The notes beneath the pieces are model-generated. The model saw only the letters and a program-made list of their open reading frames with translations. It had not been told where the DNA came from and searched no databases. This document shows positions 2,729 through 53,900 of a stretch of 64,000 bases of DNA, piece after piece. The translations under genes and the position numbers were made by a program. How positions within the stretch are numbered: position 1 is the stretch's first letter; each line of letters starts with the position of its first letter. This stretch comes from Gautieria morchelliformis (lineage: Eukaryota; Basidiomycota; Agaricomycetes; Gomphales; Gomphaceae): assembly GCA_015179125.1 (NCBI GenBank), contig WHVA01000421.1, forward strand, positions 1 to 64,000. The letters run 5' to 3'.

Positions 2729-2948
2729 TGTTAGTAATCGGGACGATGACACCGCCGAGGCAGAGCCGGCACGCATTTAGCCGGAGGTTCGAGATCGCTC
2801 TCGACCCCGGGTTGCTGGTGCACCGGCATCGCATCGGCACAGCAGCTCGAAGGGATTGGTAATATAATGGACATCATATTTTGTATATAAAGGAACGATC
2901 TACTTGAGATCATAGAATATCAGACTATTATATCTCCTTCGTTCCACA
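2729..2948 (+). repeat. Copia-1 5' LTR
   Basis: 220 bp, starting TGTTAG and ending CCACA. A TATATAAAGG box near 2882-2893 is a likely promoter. Base-for-base equal to the 3' LTR. Confidence 0.93.
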
Positions 2949-2960
2949 GGTTATGGGCCC
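2949..2960 (+). promoter_or_regulatory. Copia-1 primer-binding site
   Basis: GGTTATGGGCCC follows the LTR directly. It is complementary to the anticodon arm of initiator tRNA-Met (core CAUAACC) rather than to a tRNA 3' end. This is the half-tRNA priming known for Drosophila copia and yeast Ty5. The site also forms a small hairpin with CATAAC at 2965-2970. Confidence 0.75.
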
Positions 2961-3028
2961 CGCGCATAACTAAACTACTACAAATCTAGCTACGCCCTAT
3001 ACTCCAAATAACTCAATACCGATCGACG

Positions 3029-5043
3029 ATGTCGAGTAGCAACAACACGTACAAGATCGACCCCTTGAACGGGATAATTACGCGGCGTGGCGCCGGCGGC
3101 TCGAGTGGATACTCGATGATTCAGATCTGTGGGACGTGGCTATCGGCAGGGAGACGGAACCGAGACCGGCAGATGCCGACAACGTCACTGCGACCGAACA
3201 GCAGGAGATCGACGATTGGAGAAGGAAGGACAAGAAGGCTAGAAAAGAGATTTGCCTCAGAGTTGCCGATGAACAACTAGTTTACATCAATCAGACGATG
3301 TCTGCGTTTGCTGTATGGACTAGTCTACAAGCTATATTCGAATCTAAGGGAGCAGTGGGGATTGTAAATCTCCGAAGAGATTTCTTCCGGACGCTTGCCG
3401 AGGACGGCGCGAACATGGAGGAGCACGTACGCAAGCTCCGCGGCATTCAACAGGAACTGAATGCGCGGGGGCATTACATCAGTGACACCGAGTTCTCGAA
3501 CACGTTGCTGACGTCATTACCAGATTCTTGGTCGGTGTTTATTACGGCAGTAAACGCCAGTGGAGCCGGGACAACAGCTGATATATTAATAGCTCGGGTC
3601 CTCGATGAGGATCGAGCACGGAAAGCTGGATCGGCACGGCAGACGGCGCTTAAGGCGCAACAACGTCACAGGACCAGGAAAGATGACTCAGGAGCAACAA
3701 AGGGAAAGTGCCGAAATTGCGGCAAGAAGGGTCATTACGTGAAGGACTGCTGGGCGAAAGGTGGCGGCAAGGAGGGCCAAGCACCGAAATGGTTCAAATC
3801 AGGGAACAAAGAAACAGTCAAACAAGCAGAAGAAAAGGACTTCGCATTTGTATCTAAGGAGGTAGCATACAGTGCTATATCCGCATCCGACTGGCTAGCT
3901 GATTCAGCGGCAACAACACACATAGCTAGAAGCCGAAATGATTTCGCTAGCTATGCCGAGGAACCATCTGAAATCGAAGGAATTTCACCCGGTGCGGTAC
4001 TACATACACAAGGCCAAGGCACTATATACATGGAATTCAAGATCGGCGCCAAGACGAACACGATCGAGCTACGTGATGTCAAGCATGCACCGGATGCGCT
4101 GAACAACCTTATCAGCGTAGGGCGTTTAACTGATAAGGGCAACACGGCCACATTTTCAGGCACCGGCGTCGAATTCAAATCACGCGCCGGAGTTACCTTC
4201 GCACAGGGACAGAAGCGTGGGCGGCTATTCTGTATGAAGGCACGGGTCACTCGATCAGTCGAGGCACGGGACTTTGCCGCAGCGGCAAAAGGACAGTCAT
4301 GGGACAAATGGCACAGGATACTCGGGCACGTCAACATAAACTCAATTAAAATGTTGAAATCTAACAACCTAGTTACTGGACTTGATATCGATGAGTCAAC
4401 CGAGCCGAGCCAGTGCAAGGCATGCATACAAGGCAAGTGGCATGTGGAGCCGTTCCCCAAAAGAGCCGAGGACACTGTAGAACAGGTCGGTGACCTGACA
4501 GTATCCGATGTATGGGGACCTGCCCAGACCGAGGGACCATCGCGTGAGAAATACTTTTATTCTTTCACGGACATCAAATCGAGGTACACCGTAATCTATT
4601 TTGGGAGCACCAAAGATGAAGCGCTCAAACACTTCGAGATATACAAGGCATTCCTCGAGACCCAAACAGGTCAGAAACTGAAGAGGTTTCGCTCGGATAA
4701 TGGAGGGGAATATGTCAATAAAAATTTCAAGGAATTTTGTGCAAAATATGGCATTATCATGGAGACCACAGCTCCATACTCCCCAGCCCAGAATGGAATC
4801 GCCGAACGACTCAACCGGACCTTACTCGAGCACGCACGGGCAATGATGTTTGCCAAGAACCTGCCAAAAATACTCTGGCCCGAGGCCGTGGCTTACGCGT
4901 GTTATATCAAAAATCGATCACCCACGCGAGCGCTTGGAGATGACGCAACGCCGTTCCAAGCACTATTCGGCAAGAAGCCGAACATAGCACGTCTAGAGGA
5001 ATTCGGGACAAATTGCTGGGTTATGGTGCCGGATCAACGTTGA
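3029..5043 (+). CDS. gag-pol (5' part): Copia-1 Gag, protease and integrase region
   Basis: Gag starts at the ATG at 3029 (MSSSNNTYKIDP). A copia Gag core (UBN2-like) precedes one zinc knuckle, CRNCGKKGHYVKDC, near 3709-3750. A retropepsin follows with the copia-type active site DSAATTH near 3900. The integrase has its HHCC head (ILGHVN..CKACIQGK, 4320-4440), the catalytic core with SDVWGP and DNGGEY, and the NGIAERLNRT block near 4795. Together these parts make virus-like particles and integrate the cDNA. Fossil copy; the frame is not continuous over the region. Confidence 0.88.
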
Positions 5044-5253
5044 GCCAAACTTGATCCAAAAGCAGAAGAACATATATTCGTCGGAGTAGCTGAACATGCA
5101 AAGGCCTGGAGGTACTACAATCAAGCCTCAAAGCACGTTCAAGTATCTAGGAACATTACATTTGACGAAAATGACAACCGACTCTACCCTATCCCAGATA
5201 ACGACGATGACGACACGGCACCGCTCGAGGGGGAGCACTCACCGCGCGAGCAT

Positions 5254-7050
5254 GTGCCGGACCCGATCACATCTACCCCACAGACGTCATCACCCCAGAC
5301 AACACCCGTTCCTGATCCACCTGAACAAGCGCCAGCTCCAGAGATCCGACGGAGCGCGCGTATCACTCAAAGACCGGATTACCGGAAGCTGAATAATTCA
5401 GGACGCACCGAGCAGGTTTACATAACGAAAGAAATCGTCACTGAACCTGAGAATTACAGAGCGGCGGTATCACGTGATGATGCGCCGATCTGGGAGAAAG
5501 TGATGGAAATTGAGATGGACCAACACAAGACGTTAGGAACATGGGAGCTAACAGAACTACCACCCGGACGAGTAGCTATCGGTTGCCGATGGGTATACGC
5601 TGTCAAAACACAACCGGACGGACAATTCGATAAGGCTAAAGCAAGGGTTGTGGCTCAAGGATTCACACAGAGGCCAGGGATGGATTACTACGAGATAACC
5701 TCACCCGAGGTCAAATTCGATTCACTACGTGTTCTATTAGCGATCGCAAACACACTCGATTGGGAAATCGAAATGATGGATGTCAAAGGCGCCTACCTCA
5801 ATTCAACCATAGATGAGGAGATCTACATGCGCCAGCCCGACGGTTTTGATGATGGATCTGGACGCGTTCTAAGAATATACAGAGCGCTCTACGGACTCAA
5901 ACAATCGGGACGAGCTTGGCATCAGCGCTTACGCAAATTACTACTCGATCTCGGCTTCCATCAAAGTACAGCCGATGAATGCGTCTACATCAGACAAGAT
6001 AAGGACTCAATCGAAGTCATATCAGTATATGTGGACGACTTTGGACTATTTGCTGACTCCAAAGGAGGGATGATTAAGCTCAAGGGGGAGCTTCATGGGA
6101 AATTCCCTTTAACAGATTTAGGAGAAATGAAGAAAATCTTGGGAATTAGAGTTGAGAGGAATAGGGATGAGGGAACACTGATCATGTCACAAGGGCATTA
6201 CATCGACATCATACTCGATCGATTCAACATGACAACAGCACATTCCGTATCTACACCTCTGCATAAAATGATCAAACTCACGGCACCCATGGACTCAACA
6301 GGTCCAACTGCCGAAGTACCCTATGCTAAGGCGATCGGATCACTAATGTATGCAGCACTCAGCACGCGACCTGATTTGGCTTTTACCGTACAACATCTGA
6401 GCCAATTCACTACTACTTACGGAACCGAGCACTGGACGGCGATCAAGCACGCGCTCAGGTACCTCAAGGGGTCACGTGACGACGGCATAATCTTCCGACG
6501 AGACGCTGGTCTCGACCTCGAAATATTTGTCGACTCGGATTATGCTAATAGAAACGACGCACTATCTATTAGTGGCTATGTAGCTATACTAGGAGGGGGG
6601 GCTATTGCATGGAGCTCGAAGAAGCAGCGAACGATCGCGTTATCTACCACGGAGGCCGAATACATGGCACTTACCGAGGGCGCCAAGCAATTAATCTGGC
6701 TGAGGCGTTTTATCGTGGAACTTGGAATCGATCAAACCCAGCCCACGTCACTTCGATCAGACAATCTAGGCGCCATTACACTATCGCATGACGCAACGTA
6801 TCATGCGCGTACCAAACACATCAATGTCGCATATCATTTCATCCGTGAGAAAGTGGTCTCTCACGAGGCATCACTTACATACGTACCGACGAAGGAGAAC
6901 GTAGCGGACATATTTACAAAGGGATTAGACATGCACCAACATAGGTATCTATTAGGGAAATTGGGATTTTACCGAAGGGACTTCTCGCTGAGGGGGAGTG
7001 TTAGTAATCGGGACGATGACACCGCCGAGGCAGAGCCGGCACGCATTTAG
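5254..7050 (+). CDS. pol (3' part): Copia-1 reverse transcriptase and RNase H region
   Basis: Copia-type RT with WEKVMEIEMDQH at the start, MDVKGAYLNS (first catalytic Asp), LYGLKQSGRAWHQRL and YVDDFGLFA (YVDD box near 6030). RNase H follows with SISGYVAILGG, STTEAEYMAL and the terminal KHINVAYHFIREKV. The frame runs on about 50 nt into the 3' LTR before it stops. Belongs to the same fossil copy as the Gag-integrase part. Confidence 0.9.
   Translation: MPDPITSTPQTSSPQTTPVPDPPEQAPAPEIRRSARITQRPDYRKLNNSGRTEQVYITKEIVTEPENYRAAVSRDDAPIWEKVMEIEMDQHKTLGTWELTELPPGRVAIGCRWVYAVKTQPDGQFDKAKARVVAQGFTQRPGMDYYEITSPEVKFDSLRVLLAIANTLDWEIEMMDVKGAYLNSTIDEEIYMRQPDGFDDGSGRVLRIYRALYGLKQSGRAWHQRLRKLLLDLGFHQSTADECVYIRQDKDSIEVISVYVDDFGLFADSKGGMIKLKGELHGKFPLTDLGEMKKILGIRVERNRDEGTLIMSQGHYIDIILDRFNMTTAHSVSTPLHKMIKLTAPMDSTGPTAEVPYAKAIGSLMYAALSTRPDLAFTVQHLSQFTTTYGTEHWTAIKHALRYLKGSRDDGIIFRRDAGLDLEIFVDSDYANRNDALSISGYVAILGGGAIAWSSKKQRTIALSTTEAEYMALTEGAKQLIWLRRFIVELGIDQTQPTSLRSDNLGAITLSHDATYHARTKHINVAYHFIREKVVSHEASLTYVPTKENVADIFTKGLDMHQHRYLLGKLGFYRRDFSLRGSVSNRDDDTAEAEPARI
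6990..6998 (+). promoter_or_regulatory. Copia-1 polypurine tract
   Basis: GAGGGGGAG directly before the 3' LTR, in the position where plus-strand DNA synthesis starts in LTR elements. Confidence 0.75.
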
Positions 7051-7218
7051 CCGGAGGTTCGAGATCGCTCTCGACCCCGGGTTGCTGGTGCACCGGCATC
7101 GCATCGGCACAGCAGCTCGAAGGGATTGGTAATATAATGGACATCATATTTTGTATATAAAGGAACGATCTACTTGAGATCATAGAATATCAGACTATTA
7201 TATCTCCTTCGTTCCACA
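6999..7218 (+). repeat. Copia-1 3' LTR
   Basis: 220 bp, identical to the 5' LTR, followed by the CAAAG target duplication. Confidence 0.93.
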
Positions 7219-15699: not shown

Positions 15700-16196
15700 C
15701 CAAGTGTGCCTCAGCAGCGATGAAACAGTACATCATTACCTACTCTGGTGCCCTGCATATAAGACACAGAGACAGCATCTAGAACACAAGCTCAAACGGG
15801 ATGTGAGGTCACTACAGATGTTGCTCTCCAGGCCAAAAGCCATAACCCCACTCTTCCAGTCCATTAATGCAACAGGTAGACTCAAACACACCTTTGGCGA
15901 CGTGACAATACAAGAGTAAGACAGAAGTTGGGGAGCACGCACCACAAAAGACTCACGAACACAGGACCCCGCCTAAGACACAGGCATGGACCGGCTCAAG
16001 GCCTAGGCCATTGAGCTCATGCAGAGATTGAGGGAGAAAGGGTAGCTAGATCAATATTTGTCGACCAAACATCTGTATGCATCATCCTATATAGGGCACT
16101 TCCCCAAAAGACAAAATGGATTAAAAAGAAATAAAAATAAAAATAGACACAAAACTCCTTGACCAATGTGTGGTATTCTGGTGCTACATAGGGACA
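15700..16196 (+). mobile_element. LINE 3' end, plus-strand arm
   Basis: Coding end of a Tad1-like ORF2: CLSSDETVHHYLLWCPAY is the C-terminal Cys-His module that follows RNase H in this clade. The stop is at about 15919, then about 280 bp of 3' UTR including an A-rich AAAAAGAAATAAAAATAAAA tract. The 5' part is absent. Confidence 0.8.
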
Positions 16197-16747
16197 GAAC
16201 CTGGGAACCGTGCTATGGTTCTCCATATTACACTTACCTTACACTGTCCCTATGTAGCACCAGAATACCACACATTGGTCAAGGAGTTCTGTGTTTATTT
16301 TTATTTTTATTTTTATTTCTTTTTAATCCATTTTGTCTTTTGGGGAAGTGCCCTTTATCAGATGATGCATACAGATGTTTGGTCGACAAATATTGATCTA
16401 GCTACCCTTTCTCCCTCAATCTCTGCATGAGCTCAATGGCCTAGGCCTTGAGCCGGTCCATGCCTGTGTCTTAGGCAGGGTCCTGTGTTCGTGAGTCTTT
16501 TGTGGTGCGTGCTCCCCAACTTCTGTCTTACTCCTGTATTGTCACATCGCCAAAGGTGTGTTTGAGTCTACCTGTTGCATTAATGTACTGGTAGAGTGGG
16601 GTTATGGCTTTTGGCCTGGAGAGCAACATCCGTAGTGACCTCGCATCCTGTTTGAGCTTGTGTTCTAGACACTGTCTCTGTGTCTTATATGCAGGGCACC
16701 AGAGTAGGTAATGATGTACTGTTTCATCGCTGCTGAGGCACACTTGG
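15700..16747. repeat. large palindrome made of two LINE 3' ends
   Basis: The left arm 15700-16196 is almost the reverse complement of the right arm 16245-16747, with a 48-bp spacer. Each arm carries the same LINE C-terminal coding end (CLSSDETVHHYLLWCPAY) followed by the same 3' untranslated region, and both point at the centre. Arm differences are few. Shared short A/T-rich runs and the GGGACA..TGTCCC boundary lie next to the spacer. Confidence 0.88.
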
Positions 16748-17759: not shown

Positions 17760-18618
17760 TTCCCACCCGATGACTATCACCATGCCTCCTTGTACCACAG
17801 CTACTTCAGCTCCGCAGGAGCTGTCGAAGCTCTCTCTTATTTTGGAAATCTTAGATCCACAGCACCAAGACGCATGGAACCCTCTAGCAGCTCTCAAGCT
17901 GACGATGAGCTCTCCGACGATGTTCTGCCAGGACACATTGAAGAAGTTCCCGATGCGAATCCCGACGACAATCCTGACTATGACGGAAACTCGTCGAGCA
18001 GCAGTGGCGAACAGACAGCAGCGTCATTCTGATGCCCAGCACCACCTCCACCACCACCACCACCAGGACCTCCTCCCTGCGGTCCCCCAGGCAGTCCTTG
18101 ACCTCTGAATCCCACCAACCCAGTTCCGCCTGCTCCAGCTCCAGATCTGGTGCAGGCTGTCACCATGCTGGTGGGCCAACTTCAGCGTCTGGCCCAAGCA
18201 AGCTCCTCGCCCCAAGAAAAAAGTTCACAAGCCGGATCAGTTCAATGGTTCTGACCCCAAGAAGCTCCAGCCTTTTTTGGTTCAGCTTCAGCTCAATTTC
18301 CATGATTTTCCTGACACCTTTCCCGATGACGAACAAAAGGTCAATTATGCCCTTTCCTATCTCCGAGGCACAGCTCTTGACTATTTCAAACCCGCCCTCA
18401 TGGATCACTACACCGTCGTCAACTGGGCAGATGATTACCACAACTTCGTTTCCGGACTCCGCAACAATTTCGGACCTTTCGATATGGAAGCCGATGCAGA
18501 AAATGAACTCGATAAGCTTCGTATGAAAGACACTCATAAGATAGCTAAATACATTGTCACTTTCCAGCAGCTCACTCCTCGAGTCCAATGGGGAGAAGCT
18601 GCACTCCGCCGACAGTTC
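17760..18618 (+). pseudogene. gag: Gypsy-A gag fossil
   Basis: The gypsy Gag core is seen as KPDQFNGSDPKKLQPFL, FPDDEQKVNYALSYLRGTA and LDYFKPAL, typical of the retrotrans_gag fold. A short continuation (FYMGLPYPIKDEIA) lies at 19101-19244 past the solo LTR. A His-rich tract (about 18040-18065) and Pro-rich N-terminal part precede it. Fossil, broken. Confidence 0.78.
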
Positions 18619-19100
18619 TGTTGGGTGCATTTATGCGCCTGCACCAAAATCAAGTCAAATACATTCCACCATTCATATTTCCTTCCAAATTCTTTTCAGA
18701 TTGTTCTACTATGATCACTTTATTTTTCAGAATTTTTGTGAAATTTTCTATCAAAGATTTGTATTTGTATTTCGATTTGTTTTTCTTCTTTTCACCACCG
18801 GCACCCTTATGTAATCATTTCGAGCGCGCTTCCATGGGCGCTAAAGGGTCAGGTGGTACTATATGCACAGTAAGACACATTTCCCCCCTCTCTCAGTGAC
18901 CAAATTCACTGAGAGAGGCAAGTAAATTAGTCTTATTTTCCTTCGATTTGTTGACCCAGAAATCTTGTAGTGAATTGATTTCTAGGTAGTGTATAATATA
19001 TTGAGTGACAACCAAATTCACTGAGAGATTGAATTGATTTCTAGTCTATTCTTTTGAGCACCAAGTCCAGTCCTACTGCCTATAATTCCTGTCCTCTACA
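18619..19100 (+). repeat. solo LTR of the Copia-2 family, older
   Basis: 482 bp, starting TGTTGGGTGCATT and ending CCTCTACA like the Copia-2 LTRs, but clearly more diverged. Flanks AGTTC / GGTTC resemble a worn 5-bp target duplication. It lies within the Gypsy-A gag region and left no internal sequence. Confidence 0.85.
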
Positions 19101-19244
19101 GGTTCTACATGGGCTTGCCATACCCGATCAAGGATGAAATTGCCCATGTTGGAAAACCTGCCACTCTAACTGATCTCTGCAACCTAGCCCACCTATCGAT
19201 GCATGCTACTGGGAAAGACATTCTGAAATTGCTTGCAAAACTTC

Positions 19245-19741
19245 TGTTGGGTGCATTGATGCTCCTGCACCAAAATCAAGCATAATATATCCAATTTGTT
19301 GTGTGGTTTCTCAATTTCTTGTCATTTTGTTCTTGTATTATGCATCCATTTCTCTGGTTATTTTCGAAATTTTCCACTCACTCCCTGTCTCTCCATTTCA
19401 TCTTGTTATTCCTACTTTCACAAGCGGCTGCACCCAGCGGAGTCTGAAATGACTTCGACGCGCGAGCTCTTGGGTGCTAAAGGGCCGGGTAGTAGTACAT
19501 GCGCAGTGAAACAGTTTCCCCCTCTCTCAGTGACAACTAAATTCACTGAGAGAGGCAAGTAAATTAGTCTAGCATTCTTTCGATTTATTAACCTAGAAAT
19601 CCTCTGTAGTGAATTGTTTTCTAGGTAGTGTATAATATATTTATAGTGACAACTAAATTCACTGAGAGAGTGAATTGTTTTCTAGTCTATTCTTTTGAGC
19701 AAGAAGTCCATTCCTACTGCCTATAATTCCTGTCCTCTACA
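19245..19741 (+). repeat. Copia-2 5' LTR
   Basis: 497 bp. It contains a perfect 13-bp stem (19521-19533 with 19543-19555) and direct repeats of the GTGACAACTAAATTCACTG block. TATAATATATTTATA near 19630 is a promoter candidate. Confidence 0.92.
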
Positions 19742-19755
19742 GGGTTATGGGCCCC
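19742..19755 (+). promoter_or_regulatory. Copia-2 primer-binding site overlapping the start codon
   Basis: GGGTTATGGGCCCC follows the LTR. The core GGTTATGGGCCC is the same as in Copia-1 and fits the anticodon arm of initiator tRNA-Met. The ATG at 19747-19749 inside it opens the 1414-codon frame. Confidence 0.75.
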
Positions 19756-22700
19756 GGAGACACTTCTGAGAAGCTATTGGGTGTTGAGAAGCTTGCTACT
19801 GATGGAAGTAATTGGCCATTGTGGCGAGCCACTCTCATCAGCTATTTCGAGTCCAAAAATCTACTCAAGCATGTAGAAGGGAGAGTGACTCAACCTCCTG
19901 ATCCTCCAGTCATGCCCCCAGGCCATATCCTTACAGAAGCTGAGGAAACTCAGATGGACAAGCCTGAGGAGAAGCTGGAGAGATATCTTGCTAGAGAAGG
20001 ACAAGCCAAGACCCAAATCATCGTCTCAGTGTCAGAGTCATTAGCCCTGATGCTACAGAAGCAAAAGACAGCAAAAGAGACTTGGGATGCACTGGTCAAT
20101 GAAATGACCAAAAAGCCCAAGATGGTCCTCACCAGCCTGCAGAGACAACTCCACAGTATGAGATGTCCTGAGGATGGAGACTTGAGAGATCATTTGGACA
20201 AGGCCCAAGACCTATATGCTCGTCTTAATGAGATGGGAGCTAGAGTTTCTGAAGAAGAATTCATGGACATTATCCTTGCGTCACTTCCACCATCCTATGA
20301 GGCAGTCATGAACGCCCTTACCACTTCGCTTGAAGAATGCGGGATGCCATTGGTCCCTGATAATATTATTAGGGTACTAAAGGCTCAGTATGACAGGAAG
20401 AAAACACTCCCGCAAGAAGAGCAGGTGTTTATTGGTTCATCTACTAAAAAGGACCAGAAGGCGCAGAAGGCGCATGTATGCACCAACTGCAAAAAGCCTG
20501 GACATTCCATCGAAAATTGCTGGGCTAAAGGAGGTGGTAAAGAAGGTCAAGGACCACGTCAGAAGAAAAAAGCCAAAGCCAAGAAGAAGAAGAAGGGTAA
20601 AGCAAAAGCGAATGTTGCCGAAGAAGAGTCCTCTTCTGAGGAAAGTGATGATGGGCATCTTGCTTTCACCAATTTCGACGAGTGCTCTAATTTCAATCTG
20701 AGCACATCCTCAGGAGTTATAGTCATACTCGACACCGGAACGACATCGCATATGACTCCTCATAAAAATTTATTGAGGAACTACTGTCAATTCTCACAGC
20801 CGAGGACTATCCGAGCAGCCAACAAAGGCACTTTTGATGCCTTCGGTTCAGGACTGCTCGTATTATCCAATAAGGTTAGAGATAAAACAGTAGAAGTCAT
20901 GTTGCAAGATACATACTATGCACCCAAGATTGCTGCTACCCTCGTCTCAATCGGTCAGTGCGATGATGCTGGCTACAATATTCGACTCGGTGGCCAGAAA
21001 TGCACAATATCTAACGCTGCTGGAAAGGTATTGATGCAAGCACCGAAGGTCAATGGCTTATATCGACTAGACCTCCAGTCACCAAGTGCTCAAGCCCATA
21101 TGTGTTTGTCTGCCATGGAAATTCATCAAAAAATGGGGCACATCTCACAAAAGTCCCTACAACATCTACTAAATCGTGGCATGATATTGGGCATTGAACT
21201 GAGCTCCACAGGCGATAGAATTGTCTGTGATGCGTGTATTCAGGCCAAGATTGCACGCAAACCTCTTCCTCGAGAACCCAGAGACCGAACATCAAAATTT
21301 GGTGACAGAATTTATTCTGATGTCTGGGGACCTGCAAGACACCTCACAATCGACAAAAAGTCATATTATGTCTCCTTTATCGATGACTACTCAAGAGAAT
21401 TGGTGATCTATCTCATGGCGAACAAATCAGAAGCATTTTCAAAGTACAAGCTCTATGAGGCTTTAATGCTTCGACAGAGAAATGTGCACATCAAGGTACT
21501 TGTTTCTGACCGAGGGGGCGAATACACGAGCTCTGAATTCGAACAGCATCTAGCCAAACAAGGCATGAAGCATCAGTTGACGGTACACGACACACCAGAG
21601 TCTAATGGTGTTGCTGAACGTCTGAACCGAACTCTCACTGAGAAAACTCGTGCCATGCTGCTGGAATCAGGCCTTCCTAAGATACTATGGGGCTATGCAA
21701 TACAGCATGCCAATTATCTTAGGACCAGGACGCATACAAGAGCTCTACCGGATAAAACACCCTACAAGATGATTCACCATGAGAAACCGAATCTCAAAGA
21801 CGTTCACGCATGGGGAACTGAAATCTACGTTAAGATCACTCAGGGAGATAAATTGGCAGCTCATGCCAAGAGAGCTCGGTGGATAGGAATTTCTGCGCAG
21901 AGTCATGGTCATTATATTTATTGGCCTGACTCGCACAAAGTTTCTGTCAAGCGGAACATTGTATTTGATTCAGAGATGAAGAAGGGAAAGGTCCCAATCA
22001 TTTCTATTGAGGAATCCAAGCTACCTACGTCTAGAGAGGAGAAGAAGGCCATTCCAGCATCAGTGCCTGTGCCCGGTCGCTTAGTCAGCGAAGAGGCAAT
22101 GATCGAAGAAATTGATGAAAGTGCACCAGAGGAATATCTTGAAGAGCTGCAACCTATTCAGGGAGTTGATGACAGACCTAGAGAAGCTGAACCTATAAGG
22201 AGAAGCGAAAGGATCCGTCAACAACAAGTGCAGCCGGCCCCAACAGGCCCCGTAACAAGATCTCAGACTCAGAGACAAGCTGGCGCACATATGACTACGC
22301 TAGCTTACGAGGACGTTGAGGACCATAAAGAAGATTTATTCGACCAAGAATTATCCTCCGAGATTGATGGCATCAGTAGCTATGAGTTTGCCATCAGTGC
22401 GTTTCCAACCGACGGTCAAAACAATAACAAGGCGCCGGCTTTGAGTAAAATTAAACCTAGCAATGCAGACGAAGCTCTGAATAATGCTATGTGGAAGAAA
22501 TCGATGGACAAAGAGTACGAGGCCCTAATCGACAAGGGAGTGTGGGAACGAGCTAAACCACCTCCTGGAGCCAATATTGTCGGTAATAAATGGGTCTACC
22601 TTTGGAAGCGTAACCCAGAAGGGAAACCAATAATGCCTAAATCGAGAATGGTCGCCCAAGGCTTCACACAGAAGTTTGGAGTCGACTATGATGAGACATA

Positions 22701-23991
22701 CTCACCTGTTGCTCGGTTATCCTCCCTGCGGATCATATGCGCCATTGCTGCTAGGAATGACTGGCCTATTCATCAAATGGACGTGGACTATGTGTACCTC
22801 AATGCTATGTTGCCTGAACCTATTTATATGAAGCAGCCATATGGATATGAGTCCGGAGACAAAGATGAAGTGCTACTTTTGAAGAAAGCACTCTACGGCC
22901 CCAAACAATCTGGAAGGGAATGGTACAAACATCTAAGTGGTGAATTCCACAAGTTAGGATTCACTACGTCAGCCACAGATGGGGCTGTATTTTATAGACA
23001 TGGCGGAAAGGGGCATGTGATCATTGCAACAGCTGTAGACGACCTCACCATCACAGCTGAGAATCAGTCAGTCCTGGACGAAGTCAAACGAGATCTTGCT
23101 CAGGTCTTCAGTATGAAAGATCTAGGCGAGATTCATTGGCTATTGAACCTCAAAATCGAAAGAGACTGGCAGAAGAAAACCATTGCAATTTCACAACCTG
23201 CATACATCGAGAAGATCATCAAAAAATTCAATCTCAAAGATGCGAAGACTTATGCTATGCCTCTTGATCCAGCCGTTAAATTATCTAAAGACCAATGTCC
23301 TTCTACAGAGAGAGGCAAGAAAGCCATGTTGAATTTTCCATACAGGCAAGCGATAGGATCACTGATGTGGGCAGCTGTAGCCACTCGACCTGACATTGCA
23401 TTTGCAGTGTCATTGCTCTCGCAATTCCTCAAAAATCCAGGTGGCACACACTGGAATGCAGTCAAACATGTCTTCAAATATTTGAAAGGGACGAAGCATT
23501 ACAAACTCACACTTGGAAGAAATCGAGACGGCTTGATGGGGTATTCAGATGCGGACTGGGGTTCGCAGAGTCATAGGCGTTCGTATTCGGCATATTTATT
23601 TCAGATTGATGGGGGCACTGTTTCATGGAGTTGCCAGAAACAGTCGATAGTAGCCCTCTCATCAACTGAAGCCGAATTCGTCGCCCTGACCCATGCAGGC
23701 AAAGAGGCTCTCTGGATACGCCACTTTGTTTCTGAAATATTCCAACCACTGAACAGAGCCATCCAAGTTTATTCAGACAATCAATCAGCCATTACAATCA
23801 CATATGGCACTCAACAACACACGAGAACCAAACATTTCGACATCAGATTATATTTCCTTCGAGATATAATCAAAAATCAAGAAGCCAAGCTCGTTTATTT
23901 GCCAACCGAACAAATGTTGGCAGATATTCTCAGTAAAGGACTCCCTAGTCCTCGAGTGAAGATCCTCAATGAGCAAATCGGAATATATTAA
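19747..23991 (+). CDS. gag-pol: Copia-2 Gag-Pol polyprotein
   Basis: One frame of 1414 codons. Gag (about residues 1-230) ends in a zinc knuckle CTNCKKPGHSIENCWAK. A Lys-rich stretch, then an acidic run, leads to the protease with the active-site motif DTGTTSHMT near residue 330. The integrase has the HHCC head (MGHISQ..CDACIQAK), SDVWGPA, the DRGGEYTS block and NGVAERLNRT. RT shows WKKSMDKEYEAL, VDYVYLNAML, LYGPKQSGREWYKHL and an AVDDLTI box in the YVDD position. RNase H has STEAEFVALT and ends at KHFDIRLYFLRDII. The start lies inside the PBS; a later start cannot be excluded. The frame looks whole; activity is not implied. Confidence 0.93.
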   Translation: MGPGDTSEKLLGVEKLATDGSNWPLWRATLISYFESKNLLKHVEGRVTQPPDPPVMPPGHILTEAEETQMDKPEEKLERYLAREGQAKTQIIVSVSESLALMLQKQKTAKETWDALVNEMTKKPKMVLTSLQRQLHSMRCPEDGDLRDHLDKAQDLYARLNEMGARVSEEEFMDIILASLPPSYEAVMNALTTSLEECGMPLVPDNIIRVLKAQYDRKKTLPQEEQVFIGSSTKKDQKAQKAHVCTNCKKPGHSIENCWAKGGGKEGQGPRQKKKAKAKKKKKGKAKANVAEEESSSEESDDGHLAFTNFDECSNFNLSTSSGVIVILDTGTTSHMTPHKNLLRNYCQFSQPRTIRAANKGTFDAFGSGLLVLSNKVRDKTVEVMLQDTYYAPKIAATLVSIGQCDDAGYNIRLGGQKCTISNAAGKVLMQAPKVNGLYRLDLQSPSAQAHMCLSAMEIHQKMGHISQKSLQHLLNRGMILGIELSSTGDRIVCDACIQAKIARKPLPREPRDRTSKFGDRIYSDVWGPARHLTIDKKSYYVSFIDDYSRELVIYLMANKSEAFSKYKLYEALMLRQRNVHIKVLVSDRGGEYTSSEFEQHLAKQGMKHQLTVHDTPESNGVAERLNRTLTEKTRAMLLESGLPKILWGYAIQHANYLRTRTHTRALPDKTPYKMIHHEKPNLKDVHAWGTEIYVKITQGDKLAAHAKRARWIGISAQSHGHYIYWPDSHKVSVKRNIVFDSEMKKGKVPIISIEESKLPTSREEKKAIPASVPVPGRLVSEEAMIEEIDESAPEEYLEELQPIQGVDDRPREAEPIRRSERIRQQQVQPAPTGPVTRSQTQRQAGAHMTTLAYEDVEDHKEDLFDQELSSEIDGISSYEFAISAFPTDGQNNNKAPALSKIKPSNADEALNNAMWKKSMDKEYEALIDKGVWERAKPPPGANIVGNKWVYLWKRNPEGKPIMPKSRMVAQGFTQKFGVDYDETYSPVARLSSLRIICAIAARNDWPIHQMDVDYVYLNAMLPEPIYMKQPYGYESGDKDEVLLLKKALYGPKQSGREWYKHLSGEFHKLGFTTSATDGAVFYRHGGKGHVIIATAVDDLTITAENQSVLDEVKRDLAQVFSMKDLGEIHWLLNLKIERDWQKKTIAISQPAYIEKIIKKFNLKDAKTYAMPLDPAVKLSKDQCPSTERGKKAMLNFPYRQAIGSLMWAAVATRPDIAFAVSLLSQFLKNPGGTHWNAVKHVFKYLKGTKHYKLTLGRNRDGLMGYSDADWGSQSHRRSYSAYLFQIDGGTVSWSCQKQSIVALSSTEAEFVALTHAGKEALWIRHFVSEIFQPLNRAIQVYSDNQSAITITYGTQQHTRTKHFDIRLYFLRDIIKNQEAKLVYLPTEQMLADILSKGLPSPRVKILNEQIGIY

Positions 23992-23995
23992 GCTT

Positions 23996-24004
23996 GCGGG
24001 GGCG
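23996..24004 (+). promoter_or_regulatory. Copia-2 polypurine-like tract
   Basis: A G-rich GCGGGGGCG directly before the 3' LTR, at the expected position. Confidence 0.55.
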
Positions 24005-24502
24005 TGTTGGGTGCATTTATGCTCCTGCACCAAAATCAAGCATAGTATATTCAATTTACTGTATGGTGTTTCAATTTCTTCTCATATTGTTCTTGTACCA
24101 TGCATTCATTTCTCTGTTAATTTTCGAAATTTTCCAGTTACTCTCTACCTCTCCATTTCATTTTGTTATTTCTACTTTCATAGGCGGCTGCACCCAGCGG
24201 AGTCTGAAATGACTTCGACGCGCGAGCTCTTGGGCGCTAAAGGGCCGGGTAGTAGTACATGCACAGTGAGACAGATTTCCCCCTCTCTCAGTGACAACTA
24301 AATTCACTGAGAGAGGCAAGTAAATTAGTCTAGTGTTCCTTCGATTTATTGACCTAGAAATACTCTGAAGCGAATTAATTTCTAGGTAGTGTATAATATA
24401 TTTATAGTGACAACTAAATTCACTGAGAGAGTGAATTAATTTCTAGTCTATTCTTTTGAGCAACAAGTCCATACCTACTGCCTATAATTCCTGTCTACTA
24501 CA
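24005..24502 (+). repeat. Copia-2 3' LTR
   Basis: 498 bp, same start and 13-bp stem-loop as the 5' LTR, but about 8-10 percent different from it. It ends CTACTACA against hAT coding sequence. Confidence 0.92.
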
Positions 24503-24529
24503 CAACCAACCTCGAACTTGTAGACCAGC

Positions 24530-27500
24530 AGCTGGTGCACCTGACGTTTGGCAGTTTTTCGTTAAAGGTAGTATCGCCAAAGGAATCAAAACTATTTGCA
24601 AATTGTGCTAGTGAGTTTTTTACCAGTTTATTCAGATAACGTCTGACAATTTGCAGTCCACCTGTGGAGTATTCGCCGTCAGCAAGCACTGGTTCTCTGC
24701 GTGTGCACATTGAAGCATGTCATGCGTATGAGTATCTTGAAGCTTGCCATGAGAATGACTGGCCGATTAAGATAAAATCTCTCGCTCTCCCCAAAAGTAA
24801 CAAAAAAGTGACCACTCAACCTGATCCACGCCCTCCATTTTCAACGGGTCGCTTTGAAGCGGCACTAGTTAACTGGATCATTGCAGATGACCAGGTACAT
24901 CAGATATGGTACACTTAGCTTTCAAAACTTATTAATATTCTCATTTAGTCTATTAATGTCGTTGAATGCCCTGAATTCCGTGATCTCCTACTTCTGCTAC
25001 AAGAATCCATGCTAAGCTGCGATATCCCACACCCAACAGCAATTCGGAGTTTGATTGGTAAGGCATGGGAGCATAATTTTACGGAACTCAAAAAAGAGCT
25101 AGCGGTGATTTCTCTCGTGAACTCTATATGACTATGAAAAGCTCACACATCCTATATAGCAATCAGTGGGGAAGATATCACTTACGATGGACTTATGGGA
25201 CAACAAGAGCATGCATGCGTATGGCGCCGTAACGGCTCACTACCTATGTCGTGGGTCCATTTCAACTTCACTGGATGGCAGGGGAGAGCTGGCCCTACAT
25301 TCCGCTCTCATTGGATTCCTTCCGATGCCTGGCTGCCATTTCGGTCAGGATCTTGCGAAGGGCCTCCTCTTTATCACCGACCGTGTCAACATAACAGACA
25401 AGGTGTGTCATTTTTTCACACATTTATCATATTGTGGCTAAATTGTATAGATTATGTTTATCACTACGGATGGCGCATCTAATATGGCTGCGATGATGCA
25501 AGACTTCGAACACCTGCTAATGGCTCGGTTCATAGACTTTGATAGTGCTAATCAACAGATAATGTAAGTAAAAATATTATTATATGTTGGCTTTCTTTCT
25601 AATTATCATAAACTTTAGATGTTTCCCACATCGCCTACACGTCACTGTGACGGCGATGCTACGAGAATGCACAAGTACCGAGGCTTTGGAAAACCCTACT
25701 GGCGATTTTGATCTGACTGAGCATGACCCAGTAAACCCCTCTAGTCAAACACCCACACAGGCTTTACAGCGTGATCCAGTCGCGATTACTCGTAACATCG
25801 CTAACACGATTTGGTCCTCCCAACTCCGCCGTGAAGAATTCAAGGAGATCGTTACAACTGGCAACCGTCGAGAACGTTGGCTAGATGCTCAACAGGTATC
25901 TTACCAGCTTGCACATCTCACCCTTATTCGTGATAGTCCAACCCGATGGGGATCGTCATATCTTATGATTGAACGAGCATTGTATCTTCGTCAGGTAAGT
26001 CATTATGCTATTGATGAGTATGAAAACGCTAAAGTTCATATTAGGCAATTGAGGTTTATATTTCGCCACCGGTCATGAGTACCATCTTCAAGCAGCGACT
26101 TACCAACAATGAATGGGCCATACTGAAGGACATAAAGAATATATTAGAGGTAGGTCCTGTTCTCTGTTTAACCTAGGGGCCATGCTTATTATACCCGCAG
26201 CCGGCTCATGCTTTACAAGCCGTCATGTGTACTGAGCACACACATACTCTTGCCTGCATACTCCCTGCATTCGACTCACTACTATCTACTTGGACCCGAA
26301 TGCGCAAGGAGCCTTCGAATGCGCACCTACGAAGGATGATTGATGTGGCAGTTGAAAAGATGACCTCACAGTATAACGAGCGTCGCTTTTCAAAGCCGCA
26401 TATTATCTCTATTGGTATGTGGCAAGCTGTTACTAAATCAATTGCTAACCAAGCCTTTGCTAGTCCTTCATCCATCGCTCAGGTTTCGATGGATTGAAAG
26501 AAACTGGCCAGCCAATCAGGTTTCGTATGCTAAAAGAACTATTCTATTAGAGGTGAGTTTTACACTATCTGCCCTCTAGCAAAACCTGACCATTGTTTAG
26601 CTTGCAAAATATGACAAGAGTCAACCAGCCGCTCAATCTACCAGGGAGACGATACACCAGCCATGTGTGTCGTGCATTGCTTACACACTCCTTTTTGGCC
26701 GGGAAATCGACGAGTGTCCAACAGGGTGCACTTCGCGTTTACCATCGGTTGAAGAAGAATGGGATTCATATTGTCACGCTGCTAACTGGCCTGACATATA
26801 CAGCATTGATCTAATCAAATGGTGGGATGTGCATAATAACTTAGGCTCTTGTTTGACATTTGACTTCTAACCACCCTGTAGCACAACAAGGGAAACTATC
26901 CACGGCTATCTCGTTGGGCACTCGACTATCTCCCAGCACAAGCATCATCTGTCCCTGCCGAGCGCTGTTAGAATAAATGGATAGCTATATTAAACACTAT
27001 TCTAAGGTCTAAAACACATCTAATTGAGCTAACATCTGGGAGAAATAATACATGCACCAATAGCAGTGCCTGCCCTGGAAAGCAGGCACCTGGGCCCTGG
27101 TCAGAAGAAATATTGCTATGGGACTAATAGTCCCATACAGGGACATCGGACACAATGGAGATTACAGTATACAGTCCTATCTATGGATGTACTGAATAGC
27201 TACCTCTGGAGAGAGGTACAGAGATGGCAAATGCCTTGCCAAGGCTGCTGTAGGCACACAGCACAGGACACACAGAATTCTTTTCTATTCTATTCCCCTG
27301 ACCAGCTCCACTGATTACGAACTGTATTACATGTTGAAAGGGGCTTTGTATATTTCTCCAAGGTCCCAGCTTAGATACTTGTCAGTAGGACAAGTATCCC
27401 GATCATTGTTCCTGCCCCACAGCTGTATGCAGCCTGTGGAGCATTTCCACATTATCCTGACCCATTCTATCACTATCTTGAACACTGGTACTCACTACTA

Positions 27501-38427: not shown

Positions 38428-40788
38428 TGTCATATACGATAGAGCCTACGCAGAAGAGACTGAAAATCTTCCAACAAAACCTTAACAAATCCGACAAAGC
38501 CAAATATGACCTCATTAATTCACCGATACACAACAGCTGGGACCTCATACTTCTGCAAGAACCGTACATCGACACCCTGGGAAATACCAAGGCTAACCAC
38601 AACTGGCACGTACTTTACCCTACTTCCCACCTTACTAACGACTCTGCAAAGTGCTCCGTCATCCTGGTCAACACGATGCTCGACATGAACACGTGGAAGC
38701 AGTTAGCATACACGCACTCGAACGATGTCACTGTGTTCCAGCTCACACACTCTCAAGGTAAAGTAACAGTATTCAACATATACAACGACTGCACACACTC
38801 GAGCACCATACACCACCTTGAGCAATTTGTAGAGACGGAAAGGCATGGCATACTCTCACGTGACTCAGATGCCATGGTCTGGTGCGGGGACTTCAACCGT
38901 CACCACCCCATGTGGGATGAGGAAAGGAACCGCCACCTCTTCACGGCTGCAGCAACGGCGGAGGCAGAGAAACTGATCTCAGCGATAGCAGACTACAACA
39001 TGGTGATGACGTTACCAAAATGCCTGCCCACTCTGCAATCCATGTCAACAAATAACTGGACCAGAGTGGACAATGTATTCTGCACCGACAATATAGCTGA
39101 CTCCATAGTCAAGTGCGACACTGACCCAGGCGCACGCGGCCCAGGCACTGACCACATCCCCATCCACACTGTACTCGACATCGAAGTGGCGCTAGACCCG
39201 CCAGCACCCTTCCGCAACTTCAGAGTAGTTGACTGGGAGAGCTTCAGGGAACATCTCGCAGAGGAACTGGAGCACCTGCCGGATGCCAAAGAGCTCAAGA
39301 CTGTGGAGGAGTTCGACGCGGTGGTGGACGCGCTGACGACGGCTATCCAAGACGCCATATAGGTGGCAGTACCACTCTCCAAACCAGTCCCACATTCGCA
39401 TAGGTGGTGGAGCAAGGAGCTGTCAGACCTTAAGAGAAGAAAAACAAGCTAAACACCCAATCCTATCGTTACCGTGCTATAGCTAACAACCCCTCTCATG
39501 AGGAGCTTCGACAGATCGACGAGAAATATGGAGCAGCCATAAAAGAAGCCAAAACACAACACTGGATCGAATATCTGGACGACCTCAGTGATGACCTACT
39601 ATGGACGGCAAACAAGTATCTCATGAGCCCGGCCACGGATGGGGGGAAAACTCAAATACCTACCCTGGAGTCAGCCTGCTCGGACGGCATGACTCACAGA
39701 GCAGAAACCAATGAAGAAAAGAGTGAAGTGCTGGCAGCGGCGTTCTTTCCGCCCAGACCGGCAACCCCTCAGGCCTTCGATAACCACAGCTACCCCAGAA
39801 GGATCAGCTACCGGTTCCAGCTCCATGAAGATCAACTAAGACGACAAATTGCCAAGCTAAGGCCGCATAAGGCCCCGGGCGACACGGCATACCCAACATC
39901 GTCCTCAAGGAGGCTGCGGACCTGATTGTCAACCATCTGCTGTGGATTTATAGGGCCGTCTTCGCGCTGGGGACATACAGCACCAGATGGCACTCGTGGG
40001 TGACGGTGGTCCTACAGAAACTGGGCAAGGCCAGCTACAACATGCCGAAAGCCTACCACCCCATCGCGCTCTACAACACGATGGGAAAACTTCTGACGGC
40101 TATTGTAACAGAGGACATGGTACATCTGTAGAGGACAGGAATTATAGGCAGTAGGAATGGACTTCTTGCTCAAAAGAATAGACTAGAAAACAATTCACTA
40201 CAGAGGATTTCTAGGTTAATAAATCGAAAGAATGCTAGACTAATTTACTTGCCTCTCTCAGTGAATTTAGTTGTCACTGAGAGAGGGGGAAACTGTTTCA
40301 CTGCGCATGTACTACTACCCGGCCCTTTAGCGCCCAAGAGCTCGCGCGTCGAAGTCATTTCAGACTCCGCTGGGTGCAGCCGCTTGTGAAAGTAGGAATA
40401 ACAAGATGAAATGGAGAGACAGGGAGTGAGTGGAAAATTTCGAAAATAACCAGAGAAATGGATGCATAATACAAGAACAAAATGACAAGAAATTGAGAAA
40501 CCACACAACAAATTGGATATATTATGCTTGATTTTGGTGCAGGAGCATCAATGCACCCAACAACATCTAACAGAAAAGCACCACCTCCTCCCAAGCAATC
40601 ATTTTGGGGGCAGATCGGGCAGAACCACAACCGACTCCCTACACCTGGTAGTCAACAAGATCAAGGGATCATGGCGTCGCAAAAAAGTACCGGTGATGTT
40701 GTTCTTGGACATTGAAGGTGCGTTTCCTAATGCGGTCACTAACCGCCTCCTCCACAACATGCGGAAGCAAAGAGTACTGGAGGAATAA
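38427..40788 (+). pseudogene. LINE-A ORF2, endonuclease and partial reverse transcriptase
   Basis: It starts at the ATG at 38427 that overlaps the ORF1 stop (TGATG). The APE-type endonuclease has QQNLNKSDKAKYDLI, ILLQEPY (catalytic Glu), WCGDFNRHHPMWD and DHIPIH. An in-frame TAG stops it at 39360-39362, and a frameshift follows near 39450. RT fingers remain around 39840-40090 (KAPG, KAYHPIALYNTMGK). After the solo LTR come FGGRSGRTTTDSLHLV and VMLFLDIEGAFPN (first RT Asp), then the end at 40788. Confidence 0.83.
40127..40562 (-). repeat. solo LTR of the Copia-2 family, young
   Basis: 436 bp in minus orientation with ACATC on both sides (40122-40126 and 40563-40567). Aligned to the Copia-2 5' LTR I see a single substitution, plus a length difference of about 60 bp. 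The internal region has been lost by LTR-LTR recombination. Confidence 0.93.
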
Positions 40789-50973: not shown

Positions 50974-53900
50974 CTATGTCATCCTGCACGACATTAAAAA
51001 TATGGCAGCAAAACCTCAACAAGTCCGATGCAGTGCAGCAGGACTTGATTAATTCCACAGACCCTAACACTTACGACATAATTCTTCTGCAGGAGCCCTA
51101 CTTCGACTTCCTAGGCAACACCCGCAATCAACCACAGGTGGTACTCGCTCATCCCCACAGCGCACAGGGACAACCCCCAAAAATCCCACGCTGCCATCTT
51201 CATCAACCGTTGCCTTCTTTCCAGCACGTGGCAGCAAATCGACATACCTTCGCAAGACATAGTGGCAGTGGCTATACAGACCAACGCCAGGACCATCACC
51301 ATCTTCAACATATATAATGACTGTGAGCACTCGGACAGCCTACAGGAAATGCACGATACGATCCAAGCGGACAAACGGGGCGCACGACTCATCAACCCAT
51401 CAAAGATGTTATGGATGGGGGACTTCAACCACCATCACTCCCTATGGGACGAAGAGCACAATGCGCATCTATTTACAATGGCCAACCTGGACAAGGCGCA
51501 AATGCTCCTAGAACTACTAGCACAGCATGATATGCTTATGGCCCTGCCGAAGGATGTCCCCACTCTCTGCGCGTCCACCACCAAAAACCTAACATGCCCA
51601 GATAATGTCTTCAGCAGTTCGGCGCTACATGACCTCTTCTCTCAGTGCACCACCTTCCCGGATATGCAACCCCCCTGCGCCGACCACTTCCCTATCTCCA
51701 GCACAATCGACGTATCGGTTCCTATGGCTGAGGAGTCGGCGAGAAGGAATTGGCAGCAGGTAGACTGGCCGAAATTCAGGGAGCACTTAACCAGCCAGCT
51801 AAGCAAACTCCCCCACCTGAACAAGATTACAGAAGCGGAAGAACTCGAAGAACGGCTAACTGCACTGACCACAGCGATCAACACGATGGTTGAAGCCGTC
51901 GTGCCATACTCTGTCCAATCCCCATACACCAAAAGATGGTGGACCAGAGAACTCAGTCAGGCAAGATCCAAGATGCGAAGGACAGCCAGGTATGCCAACT
52001 TAGCTCGGAACAACCCGCTACACCCAGCGCATATCAGGAATATTGCAACTTGAGGAACAGTTACACTGACCTAATACGTGCCACCAAGCAGAGCTTCTGG
52101 ATCGACTGGCTACAAACCGCAGACGAATCCAGCATGTGGACAGCCAGTAGATTGGTGTCTGGGCCGTCATCTGATGGGGCTCGCACCAGGGTCCCACCGC
52201 TGAAGGTGGTGGGCGACAATGGTATGGAGACCAGGGTAACAAACAACGAGGAGAAAAGCAAGCTTCTATTTAGTTCGTTCTTCCCCTCACAAGGAGCGCA
52301 ACCCCACCAGCAACTCAACACACGATTCCCGGGGCTGGCCTTCGAATACACACCAATCACCAACCAGCAAATCATATGAGTGATCGGCAAGATGAGCCCA
52401 TACAAAGCTCAGGGCCCTCTGGACTCTCCAACGCAGCACTAACCCACTGCGCAGATCTGCTAACCCCCCACCTAGGGTGCATCTACCGCACGACGTTCCA
52501 CCTCGACGTATACCCCAAGCAATGGAGAACTACCACCATTGCCGCCTTAAGGAAGCTGGGAAAGCCTGACTACACACTGGCAAAAGCTTACCATCCCATC
52601 ACGCTAATGGAAACCTTAGCCAAGCCGCTCTCAGGGTGCGTTGCCGAAACGCTAACCCACTATGCTGAAGCACTCCAACTACTGCCGAACACCAACTTCG
52701 GGGGACGGGCAGGAAGGAACACCGTCGACGCCCTCCATGTAACAATAGATTTCATCAAAGACCAGTGGAGGAAGGGAAAGGTAGTATCTGCGCTATTCCT
52801 GGACATCAAAGGAGCGTTCCCGAGTGTGACTGTGGACCGACTGATCCATGACTTGCAGATGAAAGGGGTACCAGAGCAATACACCAAGTGGGTACAAAAC
52901 AGGTTGCAAGGGCGCCAAACGAGGATCCAGTTCGATGATTATGTGTCCGACCTCCTGGACATTGATAACGGATGCGACCAAGGGGACCCAATCTCGGTGA
53001 TACTGTATCATTTCTACAACGCGGGACTGATAGAAGTGGCAAGACAGGACAAAGGAGAGCTAGCACCGGCGTTCATAGACGATGTGATGTTTCTAGCGGT
53101 GGGCAAAACATTCAAGCAGATGCATAGCAGGCTAGTCCAGATGATGACGAGAGATGGAGGGGCGAACGAGTGTTCCAAGCTTCACAATTCACGGTTCGAA
53201 TTGGACAAGATGAAATTGATTGACTTCACCTGGAGGAGGGTGGAGGACCCAGAAGGGCAAGGGAAGACGAAGCTACTCCAAGGGCGGCCCCTCAGCCTCG
53301 CAGGCACACCCATAGCACTGACAGCATCCCACAAACTACTTGGGGTGATACTCGATCGAGAACTACGGTTCAGGGAGCAAGCAGCTAGTGCAGTCGCCAA
53401 AGGCACTGACTGGGTACTGCAATTTCGACGGCTGGCCAAACCAACAAAGGGCATGTCTTATCGCAATATGAGACACCTTTATCTCAGCATTGCCATCCCC
53501 AAAATGCTGTACGCCACCGACGTATGGTATACCCGGTGCACAAGGGCGAGAACGACAAGCAAGCCCGAGCTCAGTGGGCTTCGTCTCAAAGCTCACCAAG
53601 GTGCAGAGAATGGCAGCGGTATACATCACAGGAGCACTGCGCTCCACACCAACTGACCTACTTGATATTCATGCTGACTTACTGCCATCCAGCTAGCGCT
53701 AGACAAGCACACTTACAACGCCACCCTATGCATGCTCACGCTGCCACCCCTCCACCCACTACACACATGCTTGCGCAAGGCCTCGAAACAGGCATGGCAG
53801 CATCGTTCACCATTACACAACCTGCTCCAAGCCCACAGCCTGACAGTCGGCGAAGTTGAAGTCATCCCGCGACTCGACATGAGCCTCATGGATCCCACCA

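Follow-up and report, generated by a model that had tools for sequence, protein, structure and literature searches.

The element at 19245-24502 of the window (by which we mean the whole stretch of 64,000 nucleotides that was analysed, C473:1-64000, in a genome assembly of 122 Mb and 1,113 contigs) is a complete copia-type element with an open frame of 1,414 codons, and we regard it as having probably arisen through a homologous recombination that joined two separate copia insertions. In the scheme we favour, an insertion of subfamily A in a gypsy gag and an insertion of subfamily B in another repeat would have been joined by a crossover between them. At the left of the element lies the subfamily-A LTR with its own target junction in the gypsy gag, and at the right a mainly B-like body followed by the B 3' LTR with its own target junction in the other repeat. 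The two insertions would have lain on one chromosome and pointed the same way, and the DNA between them, including the right target half of the A element and the left target half of the B element, would probably have been deleted by the crossover. The A partner may have been a full copy or a solo LTR; in the latter case the crossover must fall within the last 30 bp of the LTR. The features on which the argument rests are the following.

18277-18618, plus strand: gypsy gag, the left target (Pfam Retrotrans_gag, E 1.8e-8)
18619-19101, plus strand: older solo LTR of the same superfamily within the gag, differing from the 5' LTR at 103 of 480 sites; near-TSD AGTTC/GGTTC, read by eye
19240-19244, plus strand: left target 5-mer ACTTC in the gypsy gag, putative half of a lost target site duplication (TSD), as read in the uninterrupted gag copies L062 and L063 and in the gag of L040
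19245-19741, plus strand: 5' LTR, 497 nt, subfamily A; in the tree it pairs with the solo LTR at 40127-40562 (support 100/84) inside clade A
19712-19911, plus strand: interval in which the A-to-B switch most likely lies, though without a firm position, between the last A site (19712) and the first B site (19911)
19747-23991, plus strand: gag-pol open reading frame, 1,414 aa, with the copia domain order
24005-24502, plus strand: 3' LTR, 498 nt, subfamily B; inside the B clade (support 99/93)
24503-24507, plus strand: right target 5-mer CAACC, putative half of another lost TSD, from seven uninterrupted copies of the right-flank repeat
24503-26500, plus strand: right target, a multi-copy repeat with seven relatives at 95.6-97.0% over 2 kb
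40127-40562, minus strand: solo LTR, an independent insertion and, among the matches listed, the closest relative of the 5' LTR

Scanned in five pieces, the 19747-23991 frame matched the Pfam families Retrotran_gag_2, Pol_BBD, gag_pre-integrs, rve, SH3_retrovirus and RVT_2, in that order, the last piece having no Pfam match. With the integrase preceding the reverse transcriptase, a single polyprotein, and a copia-type gag and RVT_2, the element has the organization of Ty1/copia (Pseudoviridae-type) retrotransposons. The TG...CA LTRs and 5-bp TSD of that group are present in the family: in one set of 23 solos the TSD was perfect in 22 and had one mismatch in the other, and 16 of 23 complete copies had a perfect TSD. 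The copy at 19245-24502 is itself without a TSD, its flanking 5-mers being ACTTC on the left and CAACC on the right. Its two LTRs differ by 42 substitutions over 497 aligned sites and by one gap (91.4% identity). The preliminary description was accurate on the LTR divergence, which it had put at about 8-10 percent, on the absence of a target duplication and on the gypsy gag of the left flank; its label of hAT coding sequence for the right flank found no confirmation in Pfam over the 10 of 15 stop-free pieces scanned. The older solo LTR at 18619-19101 was absent from that description.

Several other features of the window may be recorded here. A shorter LTR element at 2729-7218 has identical LTRs and a perfect TSD (CAAAG) and looks like an ordinary young insertion. 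The 1-kb stretch at 15700-16747 is its own reverse complement at 94%, a fold-back palindrome, and the stretches 1-1147 and 51651-52796 are inverted copies that are 99.1% identical.

The two LTRs of the element belong to different subfamilies. Searches of the genome with each LTR scored 40 candidates per search, so that the relatives found are lower bounds. Relatives of the 5' LTR lie at 98-99% identity among the best 40 of 2,123 candidate places, those of the 3' LTR at 96-99% over the whole length among the best 40 candidates, and no place is common to the relatives of both among these best 40 of each. Comparison of 27 A-type LTRs, a reference set from which L007 and L008 with their 512-nt LTRs are excluded, with 11 B-type LTRs gave 27 separating sites; the 5' LTR carries the A state at 27/27 of them and the 3' LTR the B state at 27/27. 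The LTRs of A and B are about 8% apart, while the 5' LTR lies 4-9 sites from each A copy and the 3' LTR 7-13 sites from each B copy compared. A tree of the family's LTRs had been named beforehand as a check on recombination, and in the tree of 91 LTRs from this one genome (the two of the window copy, 34 complete pairs and 21 solos) the 5' LTR falls in the supported clade A and the 3' LTR in the supported clade B. Forcing the two to be sisters costs 102.8 log-likelihood units and is rejected (AU p 2.95e-06). Young TSD-flanked copies are found in A (LTR pairs differing at 0/497 sites in both C341 and C1) and in B (2/498 in C226; 0/382 aligned sites plus a gap in C464). The preliminary description had seen a recombinant of a young and an old copy, which does not stand, B being a separate subfamily with young copies of its own; an aged 3' LTR is likewise rejected by the 27 B diagnostic sites and by the place in the B clade.

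The rank of the solo LTR at 40127-40562 as closest relative of the 5' LTR refers to the 40 candidates scored among 2,123, a search in which LTRs with deletions may be missed. This solo is without 61 nt of the 5' LTR and differs from it at 1 of 436 shared sites, which bears out the single substitution, apart from length, reported earlier. It has the TSD GATGT on both sides, and an inversion between it and the 5' LTR was rejected on account of this perfect duplication. That the closest listed LTR is on the same contig, only 20 kb away and inverted, would be unexpected if insertion sites were random.

What happened at the edges of the element can be read from uninterrupted copies of the two targets. 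Across the left insertion point, the gag relatives L062 and L063 read ...ACTTC followed by TGCCCAG, and a third gag copy, in L040, reads ...ACTTC followed by CACCCAG. The right-flank repeat matches 14 other places from its first base on, at 91-97%, and seven uninterrupted copies of it read, across the insertion point, ...CCCTATTAG followed by CAACC and then AAC. By comparison with these copies, both outer LTR edges are recognizable as true LTR/target junctions, each on half of a different insertion site. The trait of an inter-element recombinant, no TSD with both LTR edges intact, is thus present in 19245-24502.

The simplest position for the switch from A to B is the inner edge of the 5' LTR, although this position is not firm. 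Site by site against the A copies (75 sites), the 5' LTR is A at 15/15, the body B at 37/45 and the 3' LTR B at 15/15; the 8 A-like sites among the 45 of the body all lie within 20352-22315, and the calls are unmixed within each LTR, from 19911 to 20064 and beyond 22315. Over the first 250 internal bases, the distance to the window copy is 1.2-2.0% for the three B copies with data (C464, C531 and C226) and 2.8-3.6% for the 11 such copies of A and C. Of the 17 bins of the body, taken 250 bp at a time, 8 have all B copies nearer to the window copy than any A or C copy, including this first bin and the last full bin; the ranges overlap in the remaining 9, one of which, 21492-21741, has the non-B copies nearer or equal. 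Internal sites are B-like at 13/16 on the 5' side and 10/10 on the 3' side. The best single breakpoint against the A copies lies at 19601-19911 with 8 of the 75 sites misplaced, the 27 diagnostic sites narrowing its left side to 19712, and against all non-B copies (59 sites) it lies at 19677-19929 with 7 misplaced. In the latter contrast 21168-21357, 21675-22144 and 22315-22334 are near-best with 8 misplaced each. The place of the crossover is therefore uncertain, because 8 of the 45 body sites are A-like and because a switch as late as 22334 would be only one site worse against the non-B copies. The mixed stretch 20352-22315, judged against two or three B copies, may reflect polymorphism within B or older mixing.

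If the copy were an assembly mis-join or the product of a balanced exchange, the other two half-sites would be expected elsewhere. Fifteen close halves of the right repeat start at the insertion point, the window copy included; the other 14 keep their left half and the window copy alone is without it, an assessment that covers the close copies. Two further close copies, C152 and C540, start 50 and 155 bases in and are without the left half, which means that copies of this repeat can be cut by other causes. A junction of the left half, CAACC and LTR was found nowhere in the genome when as many as 3 mismatches were allowed over 25 letters. CAACC followed by the LTR start occurs exactly at four places, all read, none of them after the right-hand repeat; its 48 one-mismatch places were covered instead through the repeat's left half, all 14 close copies being uninterrupted. 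The LTR end followed by ACTTC was read at 20 places (1 exact, 19 with one mismatch), none of which runs into the missing gag half; the place in C320 (L076) adjoins gag, but a different part of it, upstream of the insertion point, over 62 bases at 77%. A looser search for the gag half gave three hits, of which the two fetched form the basis of the result: C290 (2 mismatches) is not gag, and one of two C477 hits (3 mismatches) is without the LTR. The absence of the reciprocal halves fits a loss of the DNA between two insertions; halves missing from the assembly would explain it too.

Complete copies without a TSD are frequent in this family, which has 654 body/3'-LTR junctions in the genome at up to 2 mismatches. 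Two surveys were made, on samples that are small and not random. Among 23 complete copies chosen from search hits, 16 had a perfect TSD, one a TSD with one mismatch and 6 none. The second survey took every third of the first 100 listed junctions of the 654 (20 sampled, C8 being left out), of which 11 were complete, 6 with a TSD (one offset by a base) and 5 without. Dropped before counting were C347, C616, C1092 and C1067, in which one of the LTRs is absent or truncated where it should be; copies represented by one of their LTRs only (C138's copy near 97 kb and, for example, L003, L007, L008, L013, L018, L019, L028, L029, L040 and L042); and 9 of the 20 in the second survey. A TSD was credited to C859 in spite of one mismatch and to C2 in spite of a one-base offset. 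With the window copy, 12 of 35 complete copies are without a TSD, the other 11 being C261, C287, C223, C600, C340, C485, C69, C91, C114, C143 and C150, against 0 of 25 solo LTRs, 23 of which have a perfect TSD and 2 a TSD with one mismatch (Fisher p 0.0007). Another LTR is closer than the copy's own partner in 7 of the 12 copies without a TSD and in 2 of the 23 with one (Fisher p 0.003), so that missing TSDs go with LTR mismatch across the family. In pear, the part of the study used here gives the TSD as absent in 578 of 3,799 intact elements and 552 of 3,448 solos (PMC4668562); intact elements without TSD are more frequent here (p 0.007) and solos without TSD rarer (p 0.024). For tomato TARE1 the corresponding extract gives 12 of 192 intact elements and 7 of 17 solos (PMC3701649), and the loss of TSDs in complete copies versus solos is more lopsided here than in pear or tomato.

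Some individual copies deserve mention. That of C485 (L059, L128) is a second inter-subfamily chimera, with a B 5' LTR and a 3' LTR of a third subfamily 50/498 sites apart and flanks GGTGG/ACCAT; its switch is in mid-body, as judged only by distances to the window copy. The copy of C475 (L103, L104) has a perfect TSD, CCCAG, yet its LTRs are 16/498 sites apart on different forks of the tree, which makes it a candidate for LTR gene conversion. C600 (L004) and C490 (L014) carry A-type copies in two paralogous targets, which are 88.6% alike across 272 aligned bases, and the two insertion points coincide to the nucleotide; GAGGA stands on both sides of the C490 copy and only on the left of the C600 copy. 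As to a shared insertion motif, 23 sites showed a weak symmetric G/C bias only. The LTR pairs L064/L067 and L070/L085, on different contigs, have flanks identical over the 60-70 bases compared, and may belong to duplicated segments or to two haplotypes.

Other histories of the window copy have to be weighed against this evidence. One old insertion, with LTRs that had diverged by drift and a TSD that had decayed, would account for the raw LTR divergence taken by itself, but this is hardly credible for LTRs that each stay within a few sites of their own subfamily and differ from one another at all 27 diagnostic sites, whose sisterhood the tree rejects, and whose flanks are two different repeats. 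Because reverse transcription derives the two LTRs of a new insertion from a single template, they start out identical, and the insertion has a TSD. A template switch at that stage, producing a mixed element before insertion, would accordingly end in identical LTRs and a TSD, unlike the window copy, and is very improbable as its origin; the mixed A/B calls at 20352-22315 may nevertheless record older mixing of that kind. The preliminary description had proposed that ectopic recombination or gene conversion joined two insertions. In the latter process the 5' LTR of one ordinary B insertion would have been overwritten by an A LTR, for which the solo LTR 20 kb off, the closest among the matches listed (1/436), could have served as donor, and a switch best placed near the LTR end would agree with it. 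Gene conversion leaves the flanking target unchanged, however, whereas the left flank is gag and ACTTC instead of the right repeat's left half and CAACC, so that one would have to add a further, independent rearrangement with its end precisely at the LTR edge; we consider it improbable. The joining of two insertions is thus supported by the different clades, the diagnostic sites and the own-site junction at each edge, while gene conversion alone, which would leave a matching TSD, does not explain the flanks unless these are mis-assembled.

An assembly mis-join is a more serious contender, possible although it is not what we expect: the assembler would have entered the shared 5-kb sequence through an A copy lying in gag and left it through a B copy lying in the other repeat, and such DNA would not exist. 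The contrast between complete copies and solos in TSD loss speaks for it, as do the pear solos, which in the part of that study used here are without a TSD about as often as intact elements (PMC4668562), and the identical LTRs of some copies without a TSD (C223, C69, C114). Genuine exchange depends on long homology just as mis-joins depend on long repeats, and the asymmetry is predicted by either; it is mainly because the asymmetry fits mis-joins too that we keep this explanation at such weight. Against it, the missing target halves expected elsewhere in the assembly were not found by the searches above, there is no N in 289,348 fetched bases, and another LTR element of the window, 4.5 kb long, has a perfect TSD; the greater length of homology would also, by itself, make genuine exchanges more frequent among copies of 5.3 kb than among solos of 0.5 kb. 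Moreover, A and B are about 8% apart in the LTR and the A and C copies about 3% from the window copy just inside it, so that reads from either locus that cross the switch would conflict. Recombination between two insertions is therefore the explanation we retain. It is a further and rather doubtful step to regard the whole family as an unusually active substrate of ectopic exchange, in which about one third of the complete copies, some with identical LTRs, would lie at rearrangement junctions, with perhaps 100-200 recent breakpoints in the 122-Mb genome, a figure extrapolated from 5 of 20 sampled junctions and from the 12 of 35 complete copies.

The kind of event is already well known, and the window copy is another example of it. 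LTR-tree discordance was reportedly used by Hughes and Coffin in 2001 for human endogenous retroviruses. In the sections of PMC2672092 used here, such discordance is a test of inter-element recombination, and the window copy is like the discordant elements in that its own two LTRs do not cluster, with nothing different in principle. Like the intact elements without TSD of pear and tomato TARE1, as given in extracts of those reports (PMC4668562, PMC3701649), it is a complete element lacking a TSD; unlike them, it has a different host, its partners belong to two distinguishable subfamilies, its switch can be roughly placed, and no solo without TSD is found among 25. The mosaic Tf/Tosmo retrotransposons of fission yeasts are also LTR elements of mixed origin, which, according to the part of the source consulted, may arise on the chromosome or in reverse transcription, with TSDs stated for three of four named Tosmo copies (PMC10085805); the window copy is unlike these mosaics in that its flanks are changed too.

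In conclusion, our observations bear on the dating of such elements and on the structure of this genome. LTR dating loses its validity where elements have recombined with one another (PMC2672092) and is limited by gene conversion (PMC7251063), in the passages of these works on which we draw. The preliminary description rightly warned that dating would mislead for the window copy: its LTRs differ at 42 sites, against 0-3 in 21 of the 23 TSD-bearing copies and 16 at most, and a date would read the divergence of two subfamilies as age. If the copy is genuine, its edges mark a genomic rearrangement breakpoint. The excess of complete copies without a TSD across the family points either to very active ectopic recombination or to systematic mis-joins at 5-kb repeats in this assembly, and either would matter to those who use its structure.
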